Shown here: positions 1,141 through 54,957 of the stretch, one piece after another
Numbering within the stretch: the stretch's first letter is position 1
How the letters are laid out: every line of letters starts with the position of its first letter
NCBI RefSeq assembly: GCF_024723255.1
Contig: NZ_JANIAC010000002.1
Span: forward strand, 372,001-436,000
Source of the DNA: Aestuariibaculum sp. M13
Lineage (GTDB): Bacteria; Bacteroidota; Bacteroidia; Flavobacteriales; Flavobacteriaceae
DNA: 64,000 nucleotides
Reading direction: 5' to 3'
Program-made: the position numbers and the translations under genes
Notes under the pieces: model-generated
What the model was told of the DNA's origin: nothing
Database searches by the model: none
What the model saw: the letters and a program-made list of their open reading frames with translations, nothing else

Positions 1141-3591
1141 TTATAGCTTTTTAGCATTTGTTACTTTTTGATTCGTGACAGCTATTTTTATAACCTCACT
1201 CATATCTGTGACGTAATGAAACGTTAAGCCTTTTAAATAATCCTGCTTAATCTCTTCGATATCACGTCTGTTTTCTTCACAAAGAATAACATCTTTAATA
1301 TGAGCTCTTTTCGCTGCTAAAATTTTCTCTTTAATACCGCCCACTGGTAGTACCTTGCCACGAAGTGTAATCTCCCCAGTCATCGCCAAATTTTTCTTCA
1401 CTTTTTTCTGAGTGAATAAAGACACCAACGACGTTAACATGGTAATACCTGCACTAGGTCCATCTTTAGGCGTTGCTCCTTCCGGTACGTGAATATGAAC
1501 ATTATACTTATCGAACACTTCACTGTCAATACCGAATTCATCAGCGTTAGCTTTAATATACTCCATGGCAATGGTTGCCGACTCCTTCATAACCTTACCA
1601 AGATTTCCGGTAATATTAAGCATGCCTTTTCCTTTAGAAAGAATAGACTCTATAAATAAGATATCACCACCAACACTTGTCCAGGCTAAACCTGTAACCA
1701 CACCAGCTACATTGTTATTCTCGTACTTATCTCGCTCTAATTTTGGTCGACCAAGTACTTCTATAATATCTTCGTTCGTCACTTTGATATTGTACTCTTC
1801 TTCCATAGCGATATTCTTAGCTGCATGACGTACCATTTTAGCTATCTGTTTCTCTAAGCCACGAACACCTGATTCTCTGGTATAACCTTCTACAATTTTC
1901 TCCAGTTGCGGTTTTCCTATCTTTAAATGCGAATCGTTAAGTCCGTGCTCTTTTAACTGCTTAGGTAATAAGTGACGTTTTGCTATCTCTACCTTTTCCT
2001 CGATAGTATATCCAGTAACGTTAATGATCTCCATACGGTCACGCAAAGCCGGCTGAATACTTCCTAAGCTATTAGATGTTGCTATAAACATGACTTTAGA
2101 AAGATCGTAACCCATTTCAAGGAAGTTATCATAGAATTCACTGTTTTGCTCAGGATCTAAAACTTCAAGCATTGCTGAAGATGGATCGCCGTTATGCGAA
2201 TTGGTTAACTTATCGATTTCATCAAGAACAAATACAGGATTCGATGTTCCTGCCTTTTTCAAACTCTGAATAATACGCCCTGGCATAGCACCAATATAGG
2301 TTTTTCTATGACCTCGAATCTCAGCTTCATCACGCAAGCCACCTAACGAAATACGCACATACTCTCTGCCTAACGCTTCAGCAATAGATTTTCCTAACGA
2401 TGTTTTACCAACACCCGGAGGTCCGTAAAGACATAAAATCGGCGACTTCATATCGTTACGCAATTTTAACACCGCTAAATATTCAATAATACGGCGTTTT
2501 ACATCTTCTAATCCGAAATGCTCACGATCTAAAATCTTTTTAGCACGTTTTAAATCGAATTTATCCTGGCTGTATTCATTCCATGGTAAATCTAAAAACA
2601 GCTCTAAATAGTTGCGCTGAATAGAATACTCTGCTACCTGAGGATTCATGCGTTGCATTTTCGATAACTCTTTATCAAAATGATTCGCTACTTTCTCATC
2701 CCATTCTTTGGTAAGCGCACGCTCACGCATTTCCTCAATCTCTTCCTCATGGTTCACACCACCCAATTCTTCCTGAATGGTTTTCATTTGCTGATGCAGG
2801 AAATATTCACGTTGCTGCTGACTCATGTCCATTTGTACTCTGGACTGAATATCGTTTTTAAGTTCCAGTTTTTGAAACTCAATATTCATGAATTTCAAAG
2901 TCGCCAATGCACGTTTCTTAAGGTCATCAACTTCTAATAACGATTGCTTTTCAGCTACCGTTAAATTCATATTTGATGACACGAAATTGATTAAAAACGA
3001 ATTACTTTCAATGTTTTTAATAGCAAAAGATGCCTCACTTGGAATATTCGGACTCTCCTTAATAATGTTTAAAGCTAATTCCTTAATAGAATCAATAATT
3101 GCTGAAAACTCCTTATTCTTCACTGCTGGCTTTGCTTCCGGTAAATCTCTTACCGTAGCATTCATATAAGGCTCTTCTGTAATAACCTCTGCTACTTTAA
3201 AACGCTTTTTACCTTGAATGATAACCGTTACATTACCATCAGGCATTTTTAAAACACGTAAAATTTTAGCAACGGTACCAACCTCATGAATTTCTTTAGC
3301 TGATGGGTTTTCTACCGACTCGTCTTTTTGAGCGACAACTCCTATAATTTTAGAGCCTTTGTTTGCATCGTTAATTAGTTTAATAGACTTATCACGACCA
3401 GCTGTAATAGGTATAACTACCCCAGGAAACAGAACCGTATTTCTTAATGAAAGAATAGGTAATGTCTCGGGCAACTCTTCGTTGTTTATTTCTTCTTCGT
3501 CTTCAGGTGTCATTAAAGGAATTAATTCTGCATTTTCATCAAAATCCTGTAATGACAAACTGTCAAGGGTTAAAAAATTAGATTTCTTCAT
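1141..3591 (-). CDS. lon: ATP-dependent Lon protease (endopeptidase La)
   Basis: This cytoplasmic AAA+ protease degrades misfolded and regulatory proteins. The 816-residue chain has the normal order of a LonA enzyme: an N-terminal substrate-binding LON domain (about residues 40-240), a coiled-coil linker, the ATPase with Walker A GPPGVGKT at about 390-397 and Walker B FVLDEIDK, and the C-terminal serine-lysine protease domain with the catalytic serine in DGPSAG (about 713) and the lysine in GGIKEK (about 754). All key residues are present. The acidic N-terminal extension before the LON domain is common in Bacteroidota. The gene stands alone, with a leader of more than 100 bases. Upstream, at 3715-3734, lies an element nearly identical to one before dnaK, which suggests shared stress control. 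Confidence 0.98.
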
Positions 3592-3714: not shown

Positions 3715-3734
3715 AAAGTCAATTCTTATGCCAT
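3715..3734 (-). promoter_or_regulatory. Conserved 20-bp element upstream of lon, shared with dnaK
   Basis: Read on the minus strand this is ATGGCATAAGAATTGACTTT; the dnaK upstream region at 53718-53737 has ATGGCATAATCATTGACTTT, 18 of 20 identical, same orientation. The spacing between TGGCA and TTGA resembles the -24/-12 layout of sigma-54 promoters (TGGCA-N6-TTGC), but the base after TTG is A instead of C, so that assignment is only a suggestion. It lies 124 bases before the lon start codon. Confidence 0.6.
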
Positions 3735-3824: not shown

Positions 3825-4472
3825 TTACATTTTCCCTGATTTCCTAAGAATATAGAGTAGAATAATTGGAATAGCTAGCAACACAATCATTAATAGATTT
3901 TCCTGAAACAACGAGGGTGCTAATATCAATGTAATAATATACCCTCCTACTGCCCCACCAAAATGCGCATCGTGACCAATATTACCTATTCTGTTTTTCA
4001 TACCATAGATAGAATATAACAAATAACCGATACCAAAAATATAAGCTGGAATGGGAATGGGAATCAAAAAAAACATCAAAGTCATATCAGGTCTTAATAA
4101 AATGGCTGAATACAATACGCCTGTTACAGCTCCACTAGCCCCCACGGCACTATAATGATATTCATTCTTATGAAAGTATAACGACAAGACATTACCAAAC
4201 AACAAACTCCCTATATAAATAAATAAAAAGCTAACTACTCCCAAACTCAAAACAGTATTAGCAAAGAAGTACAAGGTTAACATATTAAACAGTAAATGTT
4301 GAGTGTCTACATGTAAAAACGCCGAACTAAACAAACGTACTTTCTCCCCACGTTGCACACTGCCAACCTGAAATTTATACCTATCAAAAAAACCATAATC
4401 ACTAAACCCTTTATAAGATATCAGCACATTTGCAGCAATTATTACAATGGTTATTAAATTTAAATTACCCAT
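3825..4472 (-). CDS. Rhomboid family intramembrane serine protease
   Basis: A 215-residue integral membrane protein with about six hydrophobic segments, the size of a minimal bacterial rhomboid. The catalytic serine is in GASGA (about residue 113) and its histidine partner is in AHFGG (about 170); the HVDTQHLLFNM stretch supplies the conserved His and Asn of the second helix. Rhomboids cut transmembrane substrates within the bilayer; the substrate here is unknown. The gene is divergent from the acyltransferase at 4535 with a 62-base spacer. The family assignment is firm because the Ser-His dyad and oxyanion residues are all present. Confidence 0.93.
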   Translation of the reverse strand: MGNLNLITIVIIAANVLISYKGFSDYGFFDRYKFQVGSVQRGEKVRLFSSAFLHVDTQHLLFNMLTLYFFANTVLSLGVVSFLFIYIGSLLFGNVLSLYFHKNEYHYSAVGASGAVTGVLYSAILLRPDMTLMFFLIPIPIPAYIFGIGYLLYSIYGMKNRIGNIGHDAHFGGAVGGYIITLILAPSLFQENLLMIVLLAIPIILLYILRKSGKM

Positions 4473-4502
4473 AAAGCTTAAAAGTTTATTTTCAAATTAG
4501 CA

Positions 4503-4510
4503 TATATTTG
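4503..4510 (+). promoter_or_regulatory. -7 promoter box for the acyltransferase
   Basis: TATATTTG exactly fits the Bacteroidota -7 consensus TAnnTTTG and ends 24 bases before the start codon at 4535. No convincing -33 TTG is seen. Confidence 0.6.
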
Positions 4511-4534
4511 CCCTTACAAATCTAAAATTTATTC

Positions 4535-5416
4535 ATGCAATTTCTAGCATATATTCTGGTTTATCCACTTTTATGGTTTATATCCATACTACCATTTCCT
4601 TTGCTTTATCTTGTTTCAGATGGCTTATATATACTCATTTACTATATTGTAGGGTACCGAAAAAAAGTCGTAAAGAGCAACATTAAACTTGTTTTTCCTG
4701 AAAAGACGGATGAAGAAGTTTTATTCATTACAAAAAAATTCTACAAGCATTTATGTGATATGTTTTTAGAAATGACTAAAACACTAACTATATCTGAAAA
4801 GGAATTAAACAAACGTTTCAAAATAAAAAACCCGGAGGAGTTTAAACGACTTGAAAGTTTAAACAAAAGTATTATTATAATGTTTGGTCATTATGCCAGC
4901 TGGGAATGGTCATTAGCATTACAAAATTATATAAATTTTAATGGGCTAGCTGTTTATAAAAAATTATCAAATAAATATTTTGACGGTTTGGTAAGACGCA
5001 TGCGCTCTAAGTATAACACCACTCTTATCAGTACAAAAGAAACCATTAGCACCATAAATGAAAACGAGAGCCAGAATATTAAAAGCATTATGGCTTTTCT
5101 GAGTGATCAATCTCCTCGCCTAACGAAGGAAGTTTACTGGGGTCATTTTATGGGAATTGAAGTTCCTTGCTTTACTGGCGCCGAACGTTTAGCTAAAAAA
5201 TTAGACTTAACCACAGCCTTTTTAAAAGTCACAAAGGTAAAACGCGGACATTATGAAGCTGAAATAAAAACATTAGCAGAAAACAGTACTGAATATAAGG
5301 ATTATGAATTAACCGACATGTTTTTACGCGAAGTTGAAAAACAAATTCAGGACGCTCCTGAATATTATTTCTGGACACATAAACGTTGGAAATACAAAGA
5401 CAGAAAACCAGAATAA
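4535..5416 (+). CDS. Lipid A biosynthesis-type lauroyl/myristoyl acyltransferase (LpxL/HtrB family)
   Basis: The 293-residue protein has a hydrophobic N-terminal anchor (about residues 5-38) and the acyltransferase signature HYASWEW, an H-x4-E motif that serves as the catalytic dyad in the LpxL/LpxM/HtrB family. Further family landmarks are LSDQSPR and the C-terminal FWTHKRWKYK. These enzymes add secondary acyl chains to lipid A precursors at the inner face of the cytoplasmic membrane; some Bacteroidota relatives act on other lipids such as amino acid lipids, so the exact acceptor is uncertain. It is transcribed alone from a TATATTTG promoter and is followed by a strong terminator. Confidence 0.9.
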   Translation: MQFLAYILVYPLLWFISILPFPLLYLVSDGLYILIYYIVGYRKKVVKSNIKLVFPEKTDEEVLFITKKFYKHLCDMFLEMTKTLTISEKELNKRFKIKNPEEFKRLESLNKSIIIMFGHYASWEWSLALQNYINFNGLAVYKKLSNKYFDGLVRRMRSKYNTTLISTKETISTINENESQNIKSIMAFLSDQSPRLTKEVYWGHFMGIEVPCFTGAERLAKKLDLTTAFLKVTKVKRGHYEAEIKTLAENSTEYKDYELTDMFLREVEKQIQDAPEYYFWTHKRWKYKDRKPE

Positions 5417-13175: not shown

Positions 13176-16007
13176 TTGAAAATCCGTCACCTTAGTTCTG
13201 CCATAAGCCTATTATTGGGATTCTATTGTTTTGGTCAAAACAAAATTGACGTACACGCGGTATTTAATATTGAGAACAAACAGATTAAAATTTCTCAAAA
13301 CATTCAATATCAAAATACATCTCAAGACACACTTCAATCCATATATTTAAACAACTGGGCAAATTCGTATGCTACAAAAACGACGCCTTTAGCGAAGCGT
13401 ATTGCTGATGAATATCGTAACGATTTTCATTTAGCAAAAAATGAGGAACGCGGCTTTTCTATTTTAACATCGGTAAAAAGTAATGACCAGGACTTAAAAT
13501 ATCACGACCTGAAAGGACAAATAGATATTGTCAAGGTATTATTAGATTCGACACTGCTACCTGGAGAATCATACAACATTCATTTGGATTATATAGTTCA
13601 ACTGCCTAGCGATAAATTCACAGGATACGGCATCACTAAAACAGGTGATTTAAATTTAAAGTACTGGTATATTACTCCTGCCATATATAATGGTGAATGG
13701 CAGCATTATAGCAACAAAGATTTGAATGATTTATTCATTCCTAAAACCGATGTTTCTTTAAAAATAGAATGTCCTAAATCCTACACGATTACTTCAGATT
13801 TAGATTTAATTAAAGAATCACAAAATACTGATTTAAAATTAGTTACGCTAGAAGGAAAAACCCGAACAGTTAACAAATTATTCCTAAGCAAAACATCAAA
13901 ATTCAATACAGTTGAAACCAAAGACTTTTCAATTGTTTCAGATATTGATGATGAAGATTTAGAGATCATAGACAAGGTACTTATCACCGAAAAAATAATA
14001 AAATACATTACAAAAAAATTTGGTGATTACCCTCATGAAAAACTTCTTGTAACACAAACCGATTACGACGACAATCCGGTTTATGGCTTAAATTTTCTAC
14101 CGAGTTTTATAAACACATATCCAAATAATTTCAAATACGAGGTAAAACTTCTAAAAGTTGCTCTTCATAATTATCTAGAAAATACATTGCTAATTAACCC
14201 GAGAAAAGACCAATGGTTAATTGATGGTATTGAGATTTTCTATCTCATGAATTATGTTGAAGAACATTACCCAAACATGAAATTCCTTGGATCTTTAGCT
14301 AATTTTTGGGGCGTACGTTCATTTCATGCGGCCGATATGCGCTATAATGACAAGTACAATTTAGCCTTTATGCTAATGGCAAGAACCAACAGAGATCAAC
14401 CTTTAACGATGGCTAAAGATTCTCTTTTAAAATTCAATGCTAACATTGCTAATAAATACAAAGCAGGCATAGGATTAAACTACCTTGACGATTTTGTAAA
14501 TAGTCATATTGTTGAAAATACAATTGAGTCTTTTGTAGCAGAAAACAAACTAAAACCAATAAATTCTTCCGATTTTGAAACCTATTTAAAATCTAAAACC
14601 AATAAAAATATTGATTGGTTTTTCAACGATTACTTGTCTACAAGAGAAAAACTGGATTTCAAAATCAAGAACGTATCTAAAACCAAAGATTCTGTTACGC
14701 TTACTATTAAGAACAAGCGTCACAACAACATGCCTGTATCTTTATATACACTAAATAATGACAGTGTAATTTCTAAAATATGGATTGAAAACATAAGCAA
14801 TAACAAAACCCTGACGATTCCTAGGGACGAAGCGAATAAACTGGTTTTAAACTACAACAGTATTATTCCTGAAATTAATGAACGAGACAATTGGAAATCG
14901 TTAAAAGGTTTCTTCTTCAATAACAAACCATTACAATTCAGACTATTTAAAGATATTGAAGACCCTTATTATAATCAGGTCTTTTTAATGCCGCTTTTGG
15001 AGTTTAATAATATTTATGATGGCTTTACTCTGGGCATGAAAGCCTACAATAAAACATTGCTAAGAAAACGTTTCAGCTATAAACTATCGCCGCAATACGC
15101 TTTTAAATCCAGATCATTTACTGGCTCTGGTGTAGTTTCAATGACTCACAATCTTGAAAACAGAAACCTTTATGCCATTAACTATGGCTTTTTTGGTGGC
15201 TACCATTCATATGCACCAGATCTATTTGTTCGACAGTTTACGCCATCGTTATCTTTATATTTCAGACAAGATGACGATTTCAGGTCAAACAAAAGACATT
15301 TAGTTTCTTTTAGATATTTGGATATTCACAGAGATAAAGATGCTAATAATATATATACTACTGATGAACCAAGCTATAATGTTTTTAATGCGCGTTACGT
15401 ACATTCCAATGATAATTTAATCAATTACACAAAATGGTACACTGACTTGCAAATAGCAAAAACATTTAGCAAAGTGGTGTTTAATTTTGAATACAGGCAC
15501 CTGTTTCAAAATAACCGGCAACTTAATTTACGTTCGTATACCGGAGTATTTTTAAGTAATAGAAATGATATTAATTCCGATTATTTTAGTTTTGCATTAG
15601 ATCGCCCTACCGATTATTTATTTGAATATCCATACTTAGGAAGATCGGAAAGCTCGGGAATTTTCAGCCAGCAGTACATTGAAGCCGAAGGAGGGTTTAA
15701 ATCTAAACTAGAAACTCCATTTGCCAATCAATGGATTTCTACAGTTAATATGAGCACCACTTTATGGCGTTACATTTTAGCATATGGGGATATTGGTTAT
15801 GTAAAAAACAAATATAGTTCTGCTGAATTTGTATACGATTCAGGAATTAGAATAAATCTGGTTACCGATTATTTTGAGGTCTATTTCCCAATTTATTCTA
15901 ACCTGGGCTGGGAAGTTTCGCAACCAAAATACGAAGAAAGAATACGCTTTAAATTTACTTTAGACCCTCAAGTGTTACTTGGTTTATTTAGAAGGCGTTG
16001 GTTCTAA
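13176..16007 (+). CDS. M1 peptidase-like protein with degenerate active site, joined to a C-terminal outer membrane barrel
   Basis: The 943-residue protein has a signal peptide ending near GFYCFGQ, an N-terminal half resembling M1-family gluzincin aminopeptidases, and from about residue 590 a region of alternating aromatic beta-strands ending in RRRWF, typical of an outer membrane barrel. Where an M1 enzyme has HExxH, this one has HNYLE (about residues 331-335), and the third ligand region reads WLIDGIEIF instead of WLxEGxAxY, so zinc hydrolysis is unlikely. The start is TTG: an in-frame stop lies two codons before it and the signal peptide begins directly after it. It is probably an outer membrane protein with a binding or scaffolding role, which is an inference. 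Confidence 0.8.
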   Translation: MKIRHLSSAISLLLGFYCFGQNKIDVHAVFNIENKQIKISQNIQYQNTSQDTLQSIYLNNWANSYATKTTPLAKRIADEYRNDFHLAKNEERGFSILTSVKSNDQDLKYHDLKGQIDIVKVLLDSTLLPGESYNIHLDYIVQLPSDKFTGYGITKTGDLNLKYWYITPAIYNGEWQHYSNKDLNDLFIPKTDVSLKIECPKSYTITSDLDLIKESQNTDLKLVTLEGKTRTVNKLFLSKTSKFNTVETKDFSIVSDIDDEDLEIIDKVLITEKIIKYITKKFGDYPHEKLLVTQTDYDDNPVYGLNFLPSFINTYPNNFKYEVKLLKVALHNYLENTLLINPRKDQWLIDGIEIFYLMNYVEEHYPNMKFLGSLANFWGVRSFHAADMRYNDKYNLAFMLMARTNRDQPLTMAKDSLLKFNANIANKYKAGIGLNYLDDFVNSHIVENTIESFVAENKLKPINSSDFETYLKSKTNKNIDWFFNDYLSTREKLDFKIKNVSKTKDSVTLTIKNKRHNNMPVSLYTLNNDSVISKIWIENISNNKTLTIPRDEANKLVLNYNSIIPEINERDNWKSLKGFFFNNKPLQFRLFKDIEDPYYNQVFLMPLLEFNNIYDGFTLGMKAYNKTLLRKRFSYKLSPQYAFKSRSFTGSGVVSMTHNLENRNLYAINYGFFGGYHSYAPDLFVRQFTPSLSLYFRQDDDFRSNKRHLVSFRYLDIHRDKDANNIYTTDEPSYNVFNARYVHSNDNLINYTKWYTDLQIAKTFSKVVFNFEYRHLFQNNRQLNLRSYTGVFLSNRNDINSDYFSFALDRPTDYLFEYPYLGRSESSGIFSQQYIEAEGGFKSKLETPFANQWISTVNMSTTLWRYILAYGDIGYVKNKYSSAEFVYDSGIRINLVTDYFEVYFPIYSNLGWEVSQPKYEERIRFKFTLDPQVLLGLFRRRWF

Positions 16008-31364: not shown

Positions 31365-34300
31365 TTACCTGTAAAGCGTAAAGTGTCCAACAAAATCTCT
31401 ATCGTCTTTAGGGTCGTTAAGTTTCACAACAAACCAGTAATCACCCGTTGGTAATTCTTCGCCGTTATACTTGCCATCCCATTTTTGTCCGGCTTTCAAT
31501 CTCGCTACTACACGTCCGTAACGGTCATAGATATCGAACGTCAAATCTTTATACTGCTCTGTACATCCAGGGCCCCATTCATCTAAGGTACCATCACCAT
31601 TTGGTGTAAAGTAATTAGGAATACAAACATCAATATACTCGAAATATCCTGAAGCTTCTAAAGTACATCCGTTACTATCAACTACTGTTACTGTATAGTT
31701 ACCAGTTTCATAATAAATGAATGTGCTTTCGCTACCATAAGATTCTCCATTTAAGAAAAACTCATATTCACCAGTACCTCCGGTTGCCATAGCTTCAATT
31801 GTATTGATAGTTTCACCTTCCTGAATCGCTAACTGTAACGGTTCGTAAGCTTCAATATCAAATAATTCGGTTTGCTTCGTACATCCGTTAGTATGCCTAA
31901 CATCTATATAATGACCAATGCCTGCAGGAACATTTACAAATATATTACTTGCCTGATATGGCCCGCCATCTAATGAATATTCTAACTGTGTCGGGTCTGT
32001 CATGGTTTCATCCACATAAACCGTTACCATATTTGTAGAAATATTGTTTTCACAACCATACTCCAATACGGCTACAGGATCAATCTTAACAGGATCTGGG
32101 AATTCAATATTCCATTCAGACTGACAACCTTCACTATCGGTTACGTAAACCACATGATCTTCTCCATTTAAATTAGAGAATGTGAACAACGTTTGACCAT
32201 CAGCTCCTTGAACATAATTTCCGTTGATATCATCAAGAGCAACACTATAAGGTTGAGTACCTCCCGTAATTTCAATACTGAATTCTCCGTTCATATCGCC
32301 ATCACATAACACAGGGATTAACGAATTCGGAACAATAGTTACGAACTGAGGATCTGGTTGTGCTATTGTGAAATCGAATAACACATAACAACCTAATTGA
32401 TCCTGAACTAAACCTTGATAATAACCTGGCTCAAGGTTATCGAAAATAGGCTCATCAAAGAACTGATTCATTTGTGGTGAAATCGCATACTTGATGATAC
32501 CACTTCCTCCTGTTGCTGTGATTTCTAAAATACCATCGTTACTTCCGTTACAGGTTACATCGGTAACATCCCATTGCACTTCTAATGGTAAATTAGGTTC
32601 TGTAATAGTTACTAGAACAGATGTCACTAAACAATCACCACTTTCTACATGTACCTGATACGTTCCGATTGGTAATTCGGTAAATACACCAGGGCTATCC
32701 TGAACTGCTGTTGTGATGTCGTTACCTGAAGCGTCTTGTAAAGTATAAACATAGTTTCCTAAACCTCCTTCAGCTTCTGCAACAATAACTCCTGTTGTAT
32801 CTCCGGCACAATTAATAGTTGCATTAGTTGTATCTAAAATTACTGTCAACTCCGGAAGTTCTTCCACAACAATATCGTTAGATACCACAGACGTACATCC
32901 GTTAGCATCTCTAACATAATATCTGTACGTACCTGGCGCCACAGAGAACGTGGTTTCTGTTGTAAACGAACCTAAAACTGTTGCAAATAATTCATCTGCA
33001 CTATACTCATAAGTTCCTGTGCCACCCGTTGCGCTTAAAGTCAATGTCGCATCAACTGTACAGGTTTGAGTTGAAGCTTTCACTAAACTTGCCACCATTT
33101 GCTCAGGTTCCGCAATAACGATATCTGCAAAAGTCGTTTCACAAGTAAAGCCATCTGAAACAGTCACGTTATATGTTCCTGCTCCCAAACCTGTAAACAC
33201 GTTAGATGTTTGCGGCCCAGATGAACTTACTACCGGTGATAATGTGTTTAAAGTATAGGTATAATTTCCACCTTGTCCACCTAATACATTCGTTACAGTA
33301 ATGCTTGCCGTTCTGTCACCAAAACATGACAACATAGTTGTGCTTGGAGTAACTATTGCGTCAATTGGTAGCGGATCTATTAATTCCACTGTTTCTGAAG
33401 CAATACAGCCTTGGCTATCTCTTACGCTTACCGTATAAATACCCGCAGATAAACCTTCGAAATAATAAGTACTGCTGAACGCTGAAATGACAGTTGCTCC
33501 TAATTCTAACTGATACTCATAAGCTCCTGGCCATCCACCTGAACCACTTGCTGAAATGGTTCCGTCTGCACCAATACAAGTAATATCGGTATGAGATGTT
33601 TGAATTTCTAATGGTGCTGTTGGTGCTGTAATGGTTACATTCGTTGTTACCGAACAGAATGGCGCATTCGTTAACGTCGCATTAATAGTGTAGGTTCCTG
33701 ATGCTAATCCAGTAATCGTTAACGGACCAGCATTAGTCGAAGCTCCCGATTGTACTGAAACTCCTGAAGCATCTAATACATCATAAGTAAACGGGCCAGC
33801 TTCGTCGGTTGGTGTTGGTACACGATCTACTAACGTTAAAGTAACATTTCCGTCGTTATCGCTAAAACACGTTACATCTGTAATACTTTCAACTTCTAAT
33901 TCAAAGGTATTTGGATTGGTTACATAGTGCACCGTTTGTAAACTACAACCTGTATCTATGTTTTCTACTGTAATAATGTAATTACCTACTGTTAAACCTG
34001 TAAAGATTCCTGTTGCATTGGTTTGGTTGTATGACACATTAACCCCTTCAACAGTATATTGCAGATTTGCTGCTCCAGAAGTTGTTGCAGAAACCGTAAT
34101 ATCTTCATCGTTAACACAAGTAATCGCATTATCAATTGCGATATTGATGTTCTCTAACTCTACATAAGGAGCAATAACTGCAGTTGTTGTTCCAGAGCAT
34201 CCATTTTCATCGTATACGTTAATGGTATAACTTCCGCCAAGGAAATCAGCTTCATTATAAACATTATTTAAACCAGATTGTGCTAAAACACCATCTCTGT

Positions 34301-37300
34301 AGAATTCGTATATCACATAGTTATTAGAGCCACCTGTAACACCCGAAACTGTGATTGAAGCAAAGTTTGCTGCATTTGTATCCGGAGTACAAGTATACTC
34401 TACAACTGTTGGATTTGGCACTACAATAGCATCCGGCTCTCCAACTGTTTCCTCTTGTGTTAATGTACAGTTTCTTCCTGAAGTCACCGTGACATCATAC
34501 ACCCCTGGTGCTAATCCTGTAAATACATTCGATGTTTGTGTGGTTACACCTCCGTCTAAGCTATAAGTATAAATAGGGTTATCGTTAGTCGCTGGTAAAT
34601 TCACAGTAATCGTTCCATCAGCACTTCCGTTACACGTTACATCGGTTGGCGTAGTAGTAAATGTTACCGGTGTTGGAGCATCTAAAATAATAGGTGCTGT
34701 ATTGTTACATCCTGTATCCACATCAGTGATTATAACTGTATAAGAACCTGAAGGAATGCCAGAAATTTCATTACCTGTAATGGTGGCTCCTGCAAAATCA
34801 ATCGCGTAGCTATAATTTCCTGAACCTCCCGTTCCGTTAACTGTAATAACACCATCGGCAGTATCACAACTTGGTAAGGTGGTCACTGAAACATTTAAAT
34901 CTAATGTCGGATAAATTTCAATTGGCGTTGTTTCTGTATACGTACATCCGTTTCCATCTTTAACTGTAACATAATACGTACCCGGTGTAGACACTGTGAA
35001 CGTTGGACTTGTTTGGAATCCGGCACCAATAGAAAAACTATACGGTTCTACTCCATTTTCTGCAGAAACTGTAAATGTAAATGCATCGCCATTTAAGTTA
35101 CACTGGTTATCTGAACCAGTTGGTACCGTTACTGTTGGTAGTGGGTCAGTTGTAATGGTTACATCAATCATATCTATACACCCATTCGCATCTCTTACCC
35201 ATACATCCCAATCTGTACTTGTTGTAGGATCTAAAACTGCAGACGCACTATTGCTATAGTCTGCATCAACCGGAGCAGAACCATTAATAATAAATGCATA
35301 CTCGTAAGGCAATGTACCTCCTGTTGCTTCAACCGTTACATGCGCACCAAAATTACAGTTGGCGTTAATATTGCCAACTTGTACTAAACTTACTGGTGTT
35401 GGATCGGTAACCACAACCGTAGCTTCATCTTTACAACCCGTAGCTGTATCGGTAACTTCAAGGGAATAACTTCCTGCGGAAAGATTAGTTAAAGTAACGG
35501 TATTACCCGACTTGGTAACTGTTTCTGTTCCTGTGCCTCCTGATAAAGACACGGAATAATCTGCAGAATAGTTAGCCACCGTAAACTCAGCGGCGCCGTT
35601 AGCATCACCTGTACACAATACATTATTAGTTAATAAACCTGAAACAGTTATATTAGTTACTGGGTCTATGGTATAAGCTTCTGTGTAAAAACATCCATTT
35701 GCGTCGGTAACTGTAAATACATAAGTTCCTGGCAATAATCCTGTAAATTCACCTGAATCTTCACCCGATATATTTGTTGTTTCGGATGCTGGTGAAATAA
35801 TACTGTATTTCAATGGTGCTACACCATTAGTTGCCGTTAAATTAACTGAAGCCGTCGTTGTTATACAGGTTATATCTGTTGGAACAAAATCTAAATCCGT
35901 AGGAACACTTAATGGTTCAATATCTGTAGTTGCAGAACTTGCGGCAGTACATCCATTGGTATCTTTTACCCAAACCGTTACAGTACCAGGATTATATGTT
36001 CTATATGTATTTGTTGTTGTGTAATTAACACCTCCATCGAAACTGAATAAATAAGATCCTGAACCACCTGTTGCTGTTGCTGTAACTTCAGCTGGCTCAG
36101 TAGCATTTCCTACTCCACAGCTTAAGGTTGTAGTTACTTGTGCAAATGCTTCAACCAAATCTGGTTCACCAACTGGTATATCAACTTGAGGAGATTCACA
36201 ATTTTTACTATCTCTTACTTGTATAGTATAAGTACCTTCTGTTAAACCATCAAATACATTTGAAGTTTGCCAAGCATCCCAAGAAGAACCAGCATCATCA
36301 CTTTTTCTATACTCATAAGGTGCTATGCCATTGGCAGCCGTTACAATAATACTTCCATCTGTACCACCATTACAAGTTACATCAAACACTTGAGTTGTAT
36401 GCGTAGGAGTTGTAATAGGAGTTACTGTAATATCATTAGATATAGCTTGACAACCTTGATCGTCTGTAACTCTAAATGTATAAACACCCGGTGTATTAAC
36501 TGTATATTCTCCAGCTACTGGCGTTATTGTTGTATAACTTCCGCCATCTAGGCTTACTTCATATAAACTATAAATATTAGATCCTCCTGAAGCCGATAAA
36601 TTAATAATGGCATCGTCATCACAAGTTAAATCTAAACTTAAAATCGCATCTAATAAAACAGGTGGATGAACTGTATAAACTGTTGTTGCAATACAACCAT
36701 TGTCATCTTTTATGTATAAATCATAATCTCCCGCGGCGCTAATAGTAAAAATAGCACTTGTTTGATAAACTCCTCCACCTATACTGTATGTTTCATTTCC
36801 ATTATAGGTTGTTCCTGTTATAGTAATTGGAAATGGTGTACCATCAAAACAATACGGACTTGGATCATTAATTGTCGGTGGTGCATCAGTTGAAATATCT
36901 TCATTAAGTCTAACAGTACAATTGTTAGCATCTGTAACAACGATATCCCAATTCGTTCTGATACTTGGATCTAAAACCACAACATTACTAGATACAAAAT
37001 CACCTACACCAGGGGTGAATCCAGGAGCTCCAACGGCGTATTGATACGGTCCAGTACCTCCAGTAGTTGTAATAGTTAATTGAGCTCCAGTGTTACAATT
37101 TGCATTCACCGTATTTGATACAGCCGATAATAAAGGTTGAATTGGTTGATTAATTCTAAATGATTCTGAAACAGTACACAATGTTCCATCTGCCTCTCTT
37201 ACAAATAATTTATAATTTCCTGCCGCTAATCCTGTAACAGAACCATTTGCAGGAGCACCAGTTAATCCTGTGAAAGTACCATTTTGAGCTGGTATTATGG

Positions 37301-40300
37301 GTGAATTAGTCAAATCATCCTGAATTTCATAATATAACGAAGTAACTGAAGAATCATAATTAGATATTGTAAAACTTATACTTCCATCATCACTTCCGTG
37401 GCAATTTACATCAGTTGTGGTTAATGGATTTATTTCTATTCCGGATAAAACTGGAGTTGTAACCTCTATTATTGAATAACACCCTCCTGAGTCAACCACC
37501 TGAAATAAATAAGTTACTCCATGATTTAAACCCGTAAATATATGTGATGTTGATGCTGTTGGACCAACTTCTGTTGCTGTTTGTCCATAAATAGAATATG
37601 TAAATGGACCTGCCCCCGTAATTACAGAAATTTCAACTGTTGCTCCTGTAGCACAAGACCCTGTTGATACATTACTATCTAATTGAATATTTGGAGGAGT
37701 TTCAATTCTTTGTTTATCACTAATATATTCACATCCTTTTGCATCAACTATAGTCACATAATAATCACCAAATGATAAACCGGAAAATGTATTTGTCACT
37801 AATGAAGTTGTTACACTTGAACCTACCTGAGTAAAAGTGTTATCATACAATGAATATGTAAATGGAGCTATTCCTCCTGAATTTATAGTAATGTCTATAC
37901 TTCCTGGAACATTTGAATTACATTGTATAGCATTTCTAACAATAGTTACATCTATAGGATCTGGCTCTCCTAACGTAACCGTTCCATCGACAAAACAGCC
38001 TTTGCTATCCATCACAACATAATCATAAGCTACATTTGCAATTAAACCACCAAATACATTAGATGACACAAAAGTGGTTCCTCCATCTAAACTATAAGTA
38101 AAAGGCGCCTCTCCTGTTAAACCTGTTAACTGAATTGAACCATCTGAAAACCCGTTACATGTTGGATCTATAGAAACAGCATTAGCTGTAACTAAAACGG
38201 GATCAGTTGTTGTAAATACTTCGGTCTCAAAAGTACAACCATTAGCATCACTTATTTCAAACTTATACGTTCCTTCAACCGTTGTTAATAAACTAAAATC
38301 ATTTCCACTAACTGTTGGTGTACCTGTTCCTTGAATTAAAACTACAGTATAAGGCGCATTTCCACCGGAAATAGTTCCTTCAATTGTGGCTTCAGCTGGT
38401 GCCGAACAGGTTAAGTCTTTAGTTAATAAAGCATTTACTGTAATAGGTTCAAAAACATCTGTAGCTGTATCGGCTGTTGCTATACATCCATTAGCATCTC
38501 TAACCATTACAGTATAACTTCCAGCTGCATTAACAGTGAAAATCGGACTTGATTGATATGAAGCACCTCCATTAATACTATACGATAATGGTGCAATTCC
38601 AGTCGCACTAACTTCAAAAGTAAATCCTGAACTTGCTGTACACTGATTATCTACTGTTGGCGCTGATACCGTTGGTAACTCATCCTGGTCAATAGTAACT
38701 TGTGTAGGTGTTGGCTCTGTACATCCGTTAGCATCTTTCACATAAACATCCCAAACTAAAATTGTTCCATTACTGGTATCAACTGTAATTACATTACTTG
38801 TTCCATAATCAAAATCACCTGGAACAGGATCTCCTGAAGGTACAGCTGCATACCAATAATTAGGTGTTCCACCTGTAGCTGAAACTGTAATTTGAGATTC
38901 TGAAATATTACAAGTAATATTAGATGCTGAAGCAGTCACCCCTATAGCAGCTGTAGGTTCATTAATAGTTACACTTTCGGTAGCTGTACATCCCGTGTCG
39001 GTATCTGTCACTGTAACAGTATACGTTCCTGCTGTTAAATCTGCCAAATTAATTACAGATCCTGTAACGGTATCTGTTCCACCAGTTACTGTATACGTGA
39101 AATTCGTCGCATTAAATACTTCAAATTGTGCTGATCCGTCATTTGCTCCAAAACATAACACATCACTTAATTTCAGAGCGGTCATTGCTATCGGCGTTAC
39201 CGGGTCGATAACAAACGATTCTGTATAATAACATCCGTTTTCATCGGTTACTCTAAATACATAAGTATCTGGCGCTAATCCTGAGAAAACATTTGATGTT
39301 TGAGGCGCAACCACTACCGGAGAAATAATTTCATAGGTTAATGTACCTACACCATCTGTTGCTGTCACAGTTACTGTAGATGTGGTATTATCACAAGTTA
39401 CAACAGTTGCCGAAAAATCTAAATCGGTTGGTGGATTTAACGCTGAAATAGTTAACGAACCATCAGCGGTACATCCATTAGCATCCTGAACAGAATATGT
39501 TATGGTTTGGTCTGAACCATTATCATTGACTTCTAATGTATTTGAAGCACTATATCCTGAACCGTTAAAACTATACTTATACGGTGCGGTTCCTGTTGTT
39601 GGAACAGCAATAGTCACTGTTGAAGATTGTGCTGTATTATCGGCAGCACAGCTGAAAGGCGTTGCCGCAGCACTAGCCACTAAAGTTGTAGGTTCTGTAA
39701 TCGTTACAGTTCCATCAAAAGTACATTCATTAGCATCCTGAACCTGATAATTATAAGTTCCAGCCGCTAATCCTGTATATAAGGACGTTGATGAAAAACC
39801 ACTTCCGTTAAAACTAAATAAATAAGGCCCTACACCTCCTGATGGCACAATTTGAACCGAACCATCTGCACTTCCATTACACAAAGCATCAACTACTGTC
39901 GTTGTCGCTGTTGGGTTTTCAATAGGGTTTACTGTAATCACATTCGATACAGCTGTACATCCATTGGCATCGGTTACCTCGAATTGATAAGCCCCTTCCG
40001 CTCCTGTGGTTAAAGTAAAGGTGTTCCCTGTTAGGTTAACCGTACCAGATCCTTGAATCAAACTTACTGAATATGGTGCATAACCATCGGTAATAGTTCC
40101 CGAGATAACTGCATCTGGTGATACTGTACAATCTAATTCTTTTGTTAATGTTGCAGAAATATTAACTTGAGAAGCAATGGTTTCAGCATCTAAAGTAACT
40201 TCACAACCATAAGCATCTCTTACTGTAAATATATAATCTCCAGGAGTTAAATCGCTGAAAACAGGACTTGACTGAAAAGCTCCTCCGTTAACACTATACT

Positions 40301-43300
40301 CGTAAGGTGTTTGCCCGCCTGAAGCAGAAACTTCTAAAGTTGCCCCATTAGCCGCATCGTAACAATAATCAGCATTAACAATTGATGCTGTTGGTGCAGT
40401 TGGAGCTATTAAACTTATTGTTGTCGTTGCCGTACATCCGTTAGCATCGGTTGCTCTAATGGTATAATCGCCTGCAGCTACATTGGTTAAAATACCATTC
40501 GCCGGGAATGTATTTACAACTGTTAATGTAGCATCTAATAATTCGTATGTATACGCCGGTGTTCCACCTGTTGCTGTTGCAGTTACTGTAGAACCATCCA
40601 AACAAGTTACCGGAGTAGTTGTAGCCGATACGCTTAATGGTGATGGCGCTGTTATTACAGCTTGTAATGTTGCATCACAAAGTCCATCTGAAGCCGCATC
40701 GTAGCGCACCACAATATCATAAGTTCCTTCACCTAAGTTTGAAATAGTTAAAGGAGAGGTTGTGGTGGTGTTCCAGGTTGTTCCTCCATCAATTGAATAC
40801 TGGTAGCCATTCGTAGCATCAAAATTTTGTGCCGCAATAGTAATACTTCCGTCTCCTGCACTTGCACAGGTTACATCGCTTGTTGAAACAATATCCGCAG
40901 AAAACGCTTGTCCTGATTCAATAATGAATGGGAAATCCTCCTGAGTAATACAAGTTACAGGTAACTGATACACTTCAATATCGTCTACGGCAAAATCAAT
41001 ACCGTTTACCTGAGCAATTTCTAATCGTAATACAAAATCTAAAGACGTATTATTTCCAGGATCTACGGTTTCATTAAACTCTACCCAACCATTAGTTTTA
41101 GGAATACCACCAATAGACTGAGATGATAAAGCCATACCATTACTATCCTGTAATTCTACAGTAAGTGATGCATCTGGTTGTGTATTTCCAACTTTTAATA
41201 AGTTAGTCGCAAAGAAACGCACCTGAATTGGTTGATTCGGAATGATATCTGTAATCGGTTTTCTGTAAACCACCGCATTGTCTGGAATAGCAAAACCAGC
41301 ATCTACTGCTAAGAATCTACCCGGAATACTTCCTGTAGTATGATCTCTCGGACTCCACCATCCGCTATACGGATTGTTTCTTAATTCGTTTGTAACCGTA
41401 TATTCTCCATTACCAAATAATCTATCACCATTACATTTTGTTGCTTCAACCTGTCTTTCAAAACAGAAATTCGGATTAATACCTGGTGATGTTACATCGC
41501 CACCTGAACCGAAACTTTCAAATAATAGGTTACTATAGGTTGGTACAGTTTCTAATTTATAAGTTACACTAATGGTATGACTACCTTCAGATACATTTAA
41601 GAAGGTTTGTGGATCTGCTAAATTCGGATTTTCAACGCCATCTAATAAATAGCCGTAAGAATACGAATCTGATCCTGTATTATTTACCACAACCGTTGTG
41701 TTACCTGTACCATCACAATTGTAATCTACATCTGAAATACTAATTGACGGTGGCACTGGTTCCGGATCGATAATGATTCCAGGCATTGCATAAATACAGC
41801 CATTGGCATCTCTCATGTAAATAGTATAGGTTCCCGGAGCTACCCAAGCTTCATTATCTGAAGTCCAGCTTACCTGATTATCAAAACTATATTCATATGG
41901 CGGTGTTCCTCCCGTTGGGTTTGTAACACGCACTCTTCCTTCACCATTTGGTCCACAACCTGCCAATTGCGATACCCCAGCCGAAGCACTTAACGGATAA
42001 TCGGTTTCTGTTATAACAATATCTTCAGCAACACTAAAACACTCCTCGCCATCTAAAGTATATTCAATAAGTGTTTGGTATGTTCCTGCAGTAAGATTAT
42101 AAAAATTAGGATTCGATGAGAATGTATTTCCATTATCTATACTATAGCTAACACTGTAACCATTCGCATTGGTCACGCTAAAAGTTATACTTCCAGAGTT
42201 CTCTCCGTTACATAAAATATTGGTTTGCTCCACTGTAAATTCCGGAGGTAAAATACCTTCGATAGTTTGGGTTGTTGAAGCCGAACATCCATTAAAATCA
42301 AATACTGTAATATCGTATGTTCCTGGTGTTGGAGCTGCAATCACTGGAGAATCCTGTGAAATAGTATTCCCGTTAACATAATACTGATAAGGAGGTGTTC
42401 CTCCTACCGGATATACTGTAATCTCACCATCGGTACAGGTTAAAGGTTTAGTAATAGCCGATGTTACCGTTAATACCGGTGGCTCAATAATTTCAATATC
42501 ACCGGTAAATGTACAGCCATCATCTGTGGTGATGGTATATGAATAAGTTCCCGGATTAAGATTATCGAATGTATAATCGCTATCCATAATCGGACCTACG
42601 CTATTTATTAGCGTTCCTCCCATAGATAAACTATAGTAATACTGTGGAAGTGCATCGTTAACCGCTAATTTTATCGTCCCTTTATCTCCGTTACAGGTAG
42701 GCTGCGTTACAAATTCGGTAACATCAGCTTCTCTTTCACGCACATAAATACTAGGTGTTTGGAAAATACAAGGATTCATATCCACTTCAACCTGACGAAT
42801 ATAAACGGTGTAATAATCTGGCGTAGTAATTTCAAAAACGTTAGACGATTGCCATGGTCCGTTTGGATCTAAACTGTACTCATATCCAGAAGGCACACCA
42901 CCAACGGTTACTTCACCTGGAGTGGTACAAATAATATCTTTAGCCGTAATAGTTGGATCTAATAGGTTCTGATAAACATTGAAATAGAAAATACTAAAAC
43001 ATCCACCAGGATAATTTATTACTATTCTAAACTGCCCTGCATCGTCAACTAGGAAATCTGGTCCTGAACCTACTTCGTTCCAGGTACAAGATTCATTTTC
43101 GTTAGCACAATCATCAACTAACATTTCATCACAACTAGATTCATCTAATTGTTGCCAGCTAATAGAAACCGCATCACTAATACCTGTTTGAATATTACGA
43201 ACATCATTCGCACCACATAAGAAAATATAAGGTAATACCTTACCGTCGTTAGGACAGATTGGTAATAAATCGGCATATGGAATAATTGGATTCGTGATTG

Positions 43301-45110: not shown

Positions 45111-45130
45111 GGCGGTTAGTTTTTTATCAC

Positions 45131-45162
45131 TTATAATACCTAATTGGGGCACAGTATTATAA
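45131..45162 (-). repeat. Perfect 9-bp inverted repeat just upstream of sprB
   Basis: TTATAATAC (45131-45139) and GTATTATAA (45154-45162) are perfect complements around a 14-base loop. The hairpin ends 20 bases before the sprB start codon, within the 73-base gap after sprD. No T run follows on the minus strand, so it is not a plain terminator. Confidence 0.6.
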
Positions 45163-45183
45163 ATGCTGGGCTTCTTTATTTTT

Positions 45184-51759: not shown

Positions 51760-53667
51760 TTATTTCACTTCTTCGAAATCAACATCTTCTACATCGCTTG
51801 CTTCTCCTGCTTGTCCGTTTTGACTTGCATCAGGTCCTGCTTGCGCACCACCTTGCTGAGCTTCAGCTTGTGCTTTGTACATCTCTTCACTAGCTGCTTT
51901 CCATGCTTCATTAATTTTTTCTAAAGCTGGATCGATAACCGCAACATCTTTAGTTTCGAAAGCTTTTTTCAATTCATCTAACGCATCTTCAATTGGCTTT
52001 TTCTTATCATCTGATAATTTATCACCAAACTCTTTAAGCTGATTTTCTGTTTGGAAAATCATAGCATCAGCAGCGTTTAATTTTTCAGCTTTTTCTTTTG
52101 CTAATTTATCAGCTTCAGCATTAGCCTCAGCCTCTTGTTTCATCTTTTGGATTTCTTCTTCTGTTAATCCTGAAGATGCCTCGATACGGATATCCTGAGT
52201 TTTATTTGTTGCTTTATCTGTTGCTGTAACATGAATAATACCGTTTGCATCGATATCGAAAGTTACTTCAATTTGAGGTGTTCCTCTTTTTGCTGGTGGA
52301 ATACCATCTAAGTGGAAACGTCCGATTGTTTTGTTATCAGCCGCCATAGCGCGCTCACCTTGTAACACATGGATTTCTACCGATGGCTGGTTATCTGCCG
52401 CTGTAGAGAATACCTGTGATTTTTTAGTAGGGATTGTTGTATTTGCTTCGATAAGCTTAGTCATAACATTACCCATAGTTTCGATACCTAATGATAATGG
52501 GGTTACGTCTAATAATAATACATCTTTAACATCTCCTGTTAATACACCACCCTGGATACCTGCTCCTAAAGACACTACCTCGTCTGGGTTAACTCCTTTA
52601 CTTGGTGCTTTACCAAAGAATTTCTCAACAGCCGCTTGTACTGCAGGAATACGAGTTGAACCTCCTACCAAGATAACTTCATCAATATCACTTTTACTTA
52701 AACCTGCAGCTTTTAATGCAGACTCACATGGCGCGATAGTACGTTTTACTAAATCGTCGATTAATTGCTCGAATTTAGCACGAGTTAACGTACGCACTAA
52801 GTGCTTAGGTCCTGTAGCCGTAGCTGTAATATACGGTAAGTTGATTTCTGTTTGAGCAGAAGATGATAATTCAATCTTAGCTTTTTCAGCAGCTTCTTTT
52901 AAACGTTGTAAAGACATTGCATCTTTACGTAAGTCCATATCTTCTTCAGCTTTAAACTCATCAGCTAACCAGTTAATGATTTTCTCATCTACATCGTCAC
53001 CACCTAAGTGCGTATCTCCATCTGTAGATAATACTTCAAATACACCATCACCTAACTCAAGAATAGAAACGTCATGTGTACCACCACCAAAGTCGAATAC
53101 TACGATTTTCTGGTCTGTACCTTTTTTATCTAAACCATAAGCTAAAGCCGCTGCTGTAGGCTCGTTAATAATACGACGTACTTTTAAACCTGCAATCTCA
53201 CCAGCTTCTTTTGTAGCCTGACGTTGAGAATCGTTAAAGTAAGCTGGCACAGTAATTACTGCTTCACTTACATCCTGACCTAAATAATCCTCAGCCGTTT
53301 TCTTCATTTTTTGAAGAATCATAGCTGATAATTCCTGAGGTGTATATAAACGACCATCGATATCTACACGTGGTGTATCGTTATCTCCTTTTACTACTGT
53401 ATATGGTACGCGTTCTGCTTCTTTTTGTGATTCAGAATATTTATTACCCATAAAACGTTTAATAGAATAAACCGTTTTGTTTGGGTTAGTTACTGCTTGA
53501 CGTTTAGCAGGATCTCCAACTTTAATTTCTCCTCCTTCAACAAAAGCGATAACTGATGGTGTAGTACGCTTACCTTCTGCGTTTGGGATTACAACCGGCT
53601 CGTTACCTTCCATTACAGAAACGCAAGAGTTTGTTGTTCCTAAATCGATTCCAATAATTTTACTCAT
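51760..53667 (-). CDS. dnaK: Molecular chaperone DnaK (Hsp70)
   Basis: DnaK binds exposed hydrophobic segments of proteins in an ATP-driven cycle with DnaJ and GrpE. The 635-residue chain has the ATPase phosphate loop [12 protein letters not shown] at the N-terminus, [24 protein letters not shown], the linker [18 protein letters not shown] and the substrate-binding and lid regions, ending in the acidic [10 protein letters not shown]. Length is normal. dnaJ and grpE are not adjacent. The upstream region has an element shared with lon at 53718-53737 and a palindrome at 53749-53761; no CIRCE repeat (HrcA site) is seen. It diverges from the outer membrane protein gene at 53878. Confidence 0.99.
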
Positions 53668-53717: not shown

Positions 53718-53737
53718 AAAGTCAATGATTATGCCAT
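53718..53737 (-). promoter_or_regulatory. Conserved 20-bp element upstream of dnaK, shared with lon
   Basis: On the minus strand this reads ATGGCATAATCATTGACTTT, 18 of 20 identical to the element before lon. It ends 50 bases before the dnaK start codon. Layout resembles a sigma-54 type -24/-12 pair (TGGCA-N6-TTGA), with the last position off consensus. Confidence 0.6.
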
Positions 53738-53748
53738 TTCAAAAAAAC

Positions 53749-53761
53749 TGACATCATGTCA
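53749..53761. promoter_or_regulatory. Perfect palindrome upstream of the dnaK element
   Basis: TGACATCATGTCA has two 6-base complementary arms around a central C and lies 12 bases upstream of the shared 20-bp element. It could be an operator for a dimeric regulator. It is absent from the lon upstream region. Confidence 0.4.
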
Positions 53762-53877
53762 CTTTAGTAATTTATCCGTCTAAAAACAATACTCATAATT
53801 AAGAACTATTCTATGATTGTACTTTTTTAATTACAAAAATGGTAGTATATTAGAAGTAAACTTATTGACTAACCATA

Positions 53878-54957
53878 ATGATTAAAAAACTAAGTCTACT
53901 AGTAACATTGTTCCTGTGTTTTTTTATAGCAAACGCCCAAGAAAGCACGTCACATGACAAAAAGCACAAAGACTCAACCAAAGAAAAAAAGATTGAGTTA
54001 AAAATAATGCCCTATATAAGTTATAACCGAAACTTAAAAGTCATGCTAGGTGTTATTCCTATGGCAAATTACAGATTAAACCCAAATGACAGTATTTCTC
54101 CTAAGTCTATGTCTGGTATTGCCGGCGTTTACACGACAAACGGATCGTACTTTGCAACCGTTTTTAACCGCTGGTTTTTGAATGAGAATAAATGGCGTGT
54201 AGCATTTTTTGCCGTTACCGGAACTCATATTTCCCAGTTTTTCATGGAAGATGTTGATGTTAGTGGGTTTTATGATTACGACACCAAAACCACGATGGCA
54301 AGCATTGCGGTTAAACGTAAAATTACTGAATCGCTATATGGCGGGCTTACCTATACTTATTCCTTTTTTGATACCGTATACGAAGATGATGTACAACCTG
54401 CATCTAAAACAAAAACAAATGCAGTAGAGCTAAATATGCTTTACGACTCTAGGAACTCACAGTATTACCCAACCAAAGGAATCAATACTCAGGTTCGGTT
54501 AATCACTTATCCTGAATGGTTTGGTAATGAAAATAGTGCCAATAAATTTGTCACCAACTACAACACCTACTTTCCTATGCGCCAAAACAATGATGTACTT
54601 GCTGCACGTTTCTCTGGTCAATTCGGTTTAGGAGATGTACCCTTTGAGCAACAGGAAACTATTGGAGGCAAGGATATTCGCGGGTATTCTGAAGGGAAAT
54701 ACCGTGGAGATGGATTAATTTCTCTTCAAGGAGAGTACCGCTACAATTTTAATCAAAAAATGGGAGTAGTTGGCTTTGCTGGAATCGCAACCATTTATGG
54801 TTCAACAAACGAAAATTTCGATTGGGATGCGTACCCTGGTTTCGGCGTTGGTTATCGTTATAATGTTTTTAGTGGAATGAAATTCAATATAGGACTCGAT
54901 GCCGCCGTAGGTAAAGGCGATTGGGGAATCTATTTCAGAATTGGTGAATCGTTTTAA
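53878..54957 (+). CDS. BamA/TamA family outer membrane barrel protein
   Basis: The 359-residue protein has a signal peptide ending FFIANAQ, a short charged linker and a barrel whose strands end in RIGESF with a C-terminal Phe, as in outer membrane barrels. The (V/I)RG(Y/F) loop motif of the surface antigen (bacterial_Ag) family is present as IGGKDIRGYSEGKYRGDG. There are no POTRA domains, so it is a stand-alone barrel, and its function is unknown. It diverges from dnaK with 210 bases between the starts and is followed after 43 bases by a collagen-like lipoprotein, possibly co-transcribed. Confidence 0.85.
   Translation: MIKKLSLLVTLFLCFFIANAQESTSHDKKHKDSTKEKKIELKIMPYISYNRNLKVMLGVIPMANYRLNPNDSISPKSMSGIAGVYTTNGSYFATVFNRWFLNENKWRVAFFAVTGTHISQFFMEDVDVSGFYDYDTKTTMASIAVKRKITESLYGGLTYTYSFFDTVYEDDVQPASKTKTNAVELNMLYDSRNSQYYPTKGINTQVRLITYPEWFGNENSANKFVTNYNTYFPMRQNNDVLAARFSGQFGLGDVPFEQQETIGGKDIRGYSEGKYRGDGLISLQGEYRYNFNQKMGVVGFAGIATIYGSTNENFDWDAYPGFGVGYRYNVFSGMKFNIGLDAAVGKGDWGIYFRIGESF

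Follow-up and report, generated by a model that had tools for sequence, protein, structure and literature searches.

The window analysed here is a stretch of 64,000 nt from Aestuariibaculum sp. M13. It carries, both on the minus strand, lon at 1141..3591 (ATP-dependent protease La, 816 aa, above the cut-off of NCBIfam TIGR00763) and dnaK at 51760..53667 (Hsp70 chaperone, 635 aa, above the cut-off of NCBIfam NF001413). A preliminary description of this DNA had reported a pair of similar 20-mers, and both were found where it had placed them, at 3715-3734 and 53718-53737, on the minus strand and pointing into lon and dnaK, respectively. Each contains a sigma-54-type promoter element: TGGCATAAGAATTGA at 3719..3733 (-) before lon, with TGGCA as the -24 box and TTGA as the -12 box, and TGGCATAATCATTGA at 53722..53736 (-) before dnaK. 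From the spacing, transcription of lon would be expected to start at about 3707, and a dnaK start at about 53710 is predicted. A 13-bp site, TGNCA-N3-TGNCA, has two exact copies in the window, where 0.65 are expected. One copy, TGACATGATGTCA at 53749..53761 (-), lies 12 bp before the dnaK -24 box and is a candidate activator binding site; the other, the palindromic TGACAGTTTGTCA at 3553..3565 (-), lies within lon. Since 12 of 100 shuffles also reach two sites, their number in the window means nothing by itself.

A pattern built from the two 20-mers has these two copies as its sole matches in the window at up to three mismatches, and no further place in the 4.16 Mb genome has fewer than two mismatches when the third middle base is left free. 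At up to three mismatches, the whole genome gives 33 matches and the backwards control 48. For the short core TGGCA-N6-TTGM the count is likewise close to background, at 58 matches with 47 in the control. With no excess over its backwards control, the 20-mer is not a repeated element, and we rejected it as a genome-wide motif; its value lies in its position. The preliminary description had named random occurrence in the genome and loss of conservation in relatives as two findings that would count against it. The 20-mer is at background in the genome at three mismatches, and what goes beyond chance is that the element is conserved at orthologous positions in relatives.

This conservation was followed in 31 genomes, this one included, with 30 loci in each gene set. 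The htpG set has 29 loci, one of which, with a box score below 10, was set aside from the site count (n = 28). Beyond lon, dnaK and the genes identified by family search, gene names (miaB, lptE, secG, groEL, clpB, clpC, gyrA, dnaJ) come from recognition of the initial residues of the protein or of a short motif and not from a family scan. Within 300 bp upstream, 22/30 lon loci and 23/30 dnaK loci have a best match to TGGCATAANNATTGA with at most two mismatches, and a looser -24/-12 score reaches 12-13 of 13 at 27/30 and 30/30, respectively. The same score is reached at 79 of 79 named Flavobacteriaceae-type dnaK loci (80 were collected, of which L388 was too short to score). Of the 19 lon loci that belong to the window's family, 15 have a box that starts 141-146 bp before the gene; at dnaK, the box starts 48-93 bp before the gene. 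Other chaperone genes had been suggested as places to look, and the same kind of box precedes groES, grpE, htpG and a clpB-like gene. A TGGCA box lies 45-78 bp before the groES start in 20/30 loci by the strict pattern, the grpE box TGGCAGTACTTTTGC is identical letter for letter in 14/30, TGGYA is found upstream of the htpG start in 26/29, and the clpB-like gene of this genome (868 aa) is preceded by TGGTAAGATTATTGA. A box near an 848-aa Clp-type gene (L280) was dropped, being inside a divergent frame that looks like gyrA. At dnaK and grpE, the six bases between the two boxes are gene specific and conserved, as in TGGCAGTACTTTTGC for grpE.

The GG of the -24 box stands 10 bp from the G at -13, as in sigma-54 promoters, at lon and dnaK of this genome and in most relatives. 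The last -12 base departs from the TTGC of the sigma-54 consensus, as had been pointed out; it is A at both genes in the window, while the same genome's grpE has the C. Among the 79 named dnaK loci, this base is A in 57, T in 22 and C in none. We call the lon and dnaK promoters 'variant' because of this base. The gene for sigma-54 itself, rpoN, scores over its cut-off in 31/31 genomes. In Flavobacterium psychrophilum, 5′-end RNA-seq places a sigma-54 motif, SM4, before groESL, lon, dnaK, grpE-dnaJ and htpG, which form one co-expression cluster, and before clpB, skp and others (PMC9723704). The genes and the -24/-12 motif are those seen here, and the mapped starts include lon and dnaK, so that the proposal of a shared lon/dnaK promoter with the layout TGGCA-N6-TTGA stands. 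Judged by sequence, the lon and dnaK elements are sigma-54 promoters of the -24/-12 type.

Two other explanations of these boxes can be weighed on the same data. The likeness of the 20-mers could be a coincidence without common function, and at three mismatches the 20-mer is not enriched in the genome over its backwards control; however, the boxes keep their position at lon and at dnaK in the majority of the 30 loci each and at all 79 named dnaK loci, which makes chance an extremely improbable account. It could also be that the primary sigma factor reads the boxes, with TTGAC serving as a -35-like or a -33 TTG element and TGGCA being part of something else. The lon gene is in fact preceded by TTGACT-N16-TATAAT, which resembles a sigma-70 promoter of other phyla. 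This TATAAT is kept in just three genus members of the lon set, and we rejected the sigma-70-like candidate on that ground, whereas TGGCA is conserved across families at a fixed spacing from TTG, and in F. psychrophilum the -24/-12 motif is present at the mapped starts of these genes (PMC9723704). Reading by the primary sigma factor is, in our estimate, very unlikely.

The promoters had further been proposed to be stress promoters. That they are shared holds, but a stress role is supported in part: in the consulted part of the F. psychrophilum study, induction is reported on blood agar, at high osmolarity, in plasma and in freshwater, and not by heat (PMC9723704). The same study counts sigma-A, one sigma-54 and seven ECF factors as the sigma factors of that organism. 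Since SM4 starts are published for the same genes (PMC9723704), the lon and dnaK elements as such add a further example to a promoter class already described. In what follows, COG0466 is taken to be Lon. DnaK, GroEL, GroES, GrpE, DnaJ, IbpA and COG0466 have been predicted to be under sigma-54 in Bacteroidota, most strongly in Flavobacteriia (PMC12316311). The part of that prediction drawn on here names neither an activator nor an activator site for them, and the consulted part of the SM4 account (PMC9723704) describes no activator, upstream site, lon-internal site or -12 variant; it counts three PF00158 proteins and assigns none. Among the papers of one open-access library, supplements aside and with few subscription papers included, we found none that names an activator or activator site of this regulon.

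The 13-bp site recurs at a set place upstream of the -24 boxes, the usual gap to the TGG being 12 bp at dnaK, grpE and htpG. An exact site lies within 160 bp upstream at 23/30 dnaK, 24/30 grpE and 23/28 htpG loci, where dinucleotide shuffles give at most 0.04 per set. For groES, the exact site is found within 160 bp at 10/30 loci (shuffles, 0.1) and a site with at most one mismatch at 28/30 (shuffles, 2.5), and groES of this genome has a one-mismatch site at best. In front of the clpB-like gene, AGACATTTTGTCT at gap 12 matches the site with two mismatches. For lon, an upstream site was considered and rejected, the 160 bp before the gene containing an exact site in 1/30 loci (shuffles, 0.1) and one with at most one mismatch in 4/30 (shuffles, 1.4). 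A composite of site, N12, TGGYA, N7 and TG was searched through the 31 whole genomes and gives, at up to one mismatch, 90 matches in 30/31 genomes, as compared with 7 for the backwards pattern. The exact matches number 57, with 22 at grpE, 18 at htpG, 16 at dnaK and one elsewhere (G012:C17:218195-218233), and exactly three of them are in this genome. At the named dnaK loci, an exact site at gap 12-13 is present in 75/79; the remaining four have three one-mismatch sites at 43-44 and one exact site at 56. The named Flavobacteriaceae relatives indicate that the window's class is Bacteroidia; outside this class, just 2/15 genomes have an exact dnaK site.

Sites that are displaced from the usual position keep to one face of the helix. 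The five gene sets contain 82 exact sites, 65 of them at gap 12 or 13. Of the other 17, all except one, at 20, are at 32-34, 42-44 or 63-65, although five groES sites at 32-34 sit in an apparent terminator hairpin and may not be sites. A further 13 genomes of the window's class supplied eight exact dnaK sites, with gaps of 12, 23, 44, 54, 54, 54, 65 and 76, and one-mismatch dnaK sites in the other five. The displaced sites are stepped by about 10.5 bp from the 12-bp position. With the 12/13 class left out and its phase taken as the reference, V is 0.83 for 24 displaced sites, 0.97 for the seven from the new genomes, and 0.86 for the 12 that remain after collapsing, which still include one groES class at 33, possibly the hairpin. 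In 200,000 uniform simulations these values were never reached, a figure that is not a true p-value, as the genomes are related and not independent. Phasing of about 10.5 bp fits a protein that must face the polymerase, and a plain blocking repressor does not explain it.

At lon, the site is inside the gene. It occupies nt 27-39 of the frame, that is codons 9-13, which encode LDSLS. Within the first 150 nt of the lon genes, the site is exact in 17/30 and present within one mismatch in 24/30; one of these 24 genes, that of G030, has it at a different place, where it may be chance. The site is kept where the residues differ (FDKLS, LDMMS, FDTLS and FDNLS). Its Asp codon is GAC in 23/23 cases, as compared with 285 of the 1023 Asp codons in the same genes, and its Ser codon is TCA in 21/24, as compared with 199 of 1162 Ser codons. 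Synonymous recoding would be expected to leave 0.75 of the 24 sites, a value conditional on the 24 of 30 genes that have the site. The distance from the site to the box is mostly 158-180 and weakly periodic. We propose that the intragenic lon site acts as a downstream activator site. A string TGTTACA-N-TTT also occurs upstream of lon in 7/30 loci.

A candidate for the protein that binds these sites is encoded beside groESL, outside the window, where miaB, an activator gene, lptE, a gene for 322 aa, secG, groES and groEL form a row on one strand of this genome (the names are partly by recognition). The activator has 424 aa, with Pfam matches to the AAA+ domain (PF00158) at 13-180, the lid at 185-263 and HTH_8 at 384-422, and no Pfam match for residues 264-383. 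It has a GAFTGA loop at residue 88 and a HTH, and there is no receiver or sensor domain among its strong Pfam matches, as is characteristic of group 4. Its score with the PspF equivalog, TIGR02974, is 277 bits, below the cut-off of 443.55, and no NCBIfam family passes its own cut-off among the 25 matches listed of 27. By its domain make-up the protein would work like PspF, yet it is not PspF. All 31 genomes have one or more PF00158 matches above 200 bits, and in 26/31 the gene for one such protein lies within 4 kb of groES; weak PF00158 matches are Clp-type ATPases and occur in all 14 control genomes. The HTH reads [DE]LGIS[EQ]RTLYRK in 15/15 genomes of the class. Relatives of the activator, paralogues included, match in 61/61 genomes, and they are present outside the class too. 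THC0290_0733 is the likely counterpart in F. psychrophilum, as its gene is followed by that for LptE and is four numbers from groES, and it is listed under motif SM5 (PMC9723704).

The row that begins with miaB and the activator itself carries the exact 13-bp site upstream in 27/30 loci. This set is without G018, and the three misses are G022, where the locus starts within miaB, G026, in which no miaB was found, and G029, which has no exact site. A sigma-A-type TAnnTTTG follows the site, 17-20 bp on in 22 loci and 7-11 bp in five. The site thus covers or adjoins the -33 region of the presumed sigma-A promoter, which is the placing expected for self-limitation. A further activator gene, L240:859-2022 (-) in G000:C1, lies about 5 kb from grpE-dnaJ in this genome; it encodes 387 aa with a receiver and an AAA+ domain but without a HTH, and is similarly placed in many relatives.

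Promoter conservation, the 13-bp site with its spacing and phasing, the copies in lon and at the operon, and the protein domains are read from the DNA; that the activator binds the 13-bp site, we infer. We consider it probable that lon, dnaK, grpE-dnaJ, groESL, htpG and probably clpB form one small protein-quality-control regulon, most likely under one groESL-linked, PspF-like activator that binds TGNCA-N3-TGNCA. Points that weigh against this account are the imperfect sites at groES and clpB, the five groES sites in a likely hairpin, the weak periodicity at lon, the scarcity of exact dnaK sites outside the class although relatives of the activator occur there, and the SM5 listing of THC0290_0733. 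In this mechanism, sigma-54 polymerase would wait at lon, dnaK, grpE, groESL, htpG and probably clpB. The activator would bind its site upstream of the -24 box, at a distance of 12 bp with or without additional full turns of the helix, or at lon the site inside the gene, and its AAA+ domain would open the waiting polymerase. It would limit its own synthesis from the site over its presumed sigma-A promoter, presumably by autorepression. The signal may be misfolded protein. Sensor-less activators such as PspF are classed as group 4, in which control comes from proteins acting in trans (PMC7175178, Table 1); since the activator here has no sensor domain, release from a chaperone is perhaps the route of the signal. 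A broader statement, which we put forward tentatively and hold to be somewhat doubtful, is that flavobacteria and their class run heat shock by one sensor-less AAA+ activator of sigma-54, and by neither sigma-32 nor HrcA. A chaperone that it induces would hold this activator inactive and misfolded protein would free it, and it would act from a promoter-adjacent site in helical register and, at lon, from an enhancer within the coding sequence.

The promoters might instead be sigma-54 dependent while the 13-bp site belongs to another protein, be it another enhancer-binding protein, activator or repressor, and the groESL-linked protein has other targets. This genome does encode three other strong PF00158 proteins, two with a HTH (441 aa, with a receiver, and 627 aa, with cNMP and PAS domains), the third being the grpE-linked protein, which has a receiver but no HTH. 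Against this, 27 of 30 loci have the site at the operon of the activator itself. Furthermore, G025, G028 and G029 have no PF00158 match above 100 bits other than the groESL-type protein, which in G029 is encoded away from groES, and these genomes keep the chaperone sites, exact in G029 and mostly with one mismatch in G025 and G028. The helical phasing also speaks against a plain blocking repressor. We regard ownership of the site by another protein as rather unlikely, and prefer the groESL-linked activator.

The groESL-linked activator shares with PspF and group 4 an AAA+ domain with GAFTGA, a C-terminal HTH and the lack of an N-terminal regulatory domain (PMC7175178). It differs in having about 120 aa without a Pfam match between the lid and the HTH, and in its targets, which would be cytosolic chaperones and Lon. 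PspF is autoregulated, and an own operon that carries the site is common to both. The sites of group 4 and PspF activators are usually far upstream of the -24 box, whereas the site here abuts it. In the heat-shock control by sigma-32 and by HrcA/CIRCE, dnaK, grpE, groESL, lon, htpG and clpB are co-regulated. By contrast, positive control through sigma-54 and an AAA+ activator is proposed here. The preliminary description had seen no CIRCE site, and the search bore this out: CIRCE, TTAGCACTC-N9-GAGTGCTAA, has no match at up to three mismatches in the window or the groES locus (L242), and HrcA/CIRCE control was set aside for these loci. Sigma-54 with an enhancer-binding protein is already known; what appears to be new, as far as we have seen, is its use for a core quality-control regulon, the helically locked, promoter-adjacent site and the site within lon. 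Bacteroidota are a major phylum of the gut and the sea, and at issue is how they switch on chaperones without the classical regulators. To the published sigma-54 half, this analysis adds one testable activator, a DNA site and a gene set. The phasing and the lon site lend themselves to clean tests, by mutation, of the way in which sigma-54 activators operate over short distances and from within a gene.

Other genes of the window were also noted. At 13176-16007 (+) there is an open frame of 943 aa with no Pfam match at E 0.001. A rhomboid protease gene (PF01694) at 3825-4472 (-) is directly upstream of lon on the same strand; its preceding gap, 4472-4540, has no strict sigma-54 box, and the F. 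psychrophilum sigma-54 list includes a rhomboid protease (PMC9723704). The frame at 31365-45197 (-) encodes a SprB-repeat protein of 4610 aa that includes a type IX secretion signal domain, and adjoins a PorP/SprF-family gene at 45184-47775 (-). Two gaps upstream of the minus-strand genes ahead of the SprB frame contain, by the strict pattern, neither box nor site; in F. psychrophilum, the equivalent gliding operon is preceded by a sigma-54 promoter (PMC9723704). A groES-like sigma-54 box, TGGTAGTATATTAGA at 53840-53854 (+), stands 23 bp before a divergent Omp85-family gene (53878-54957); its TGG is kept in three of four genus members and is TGA in the fourth. The dnaK site is 78 bp upstream of this box and might serve both directions.
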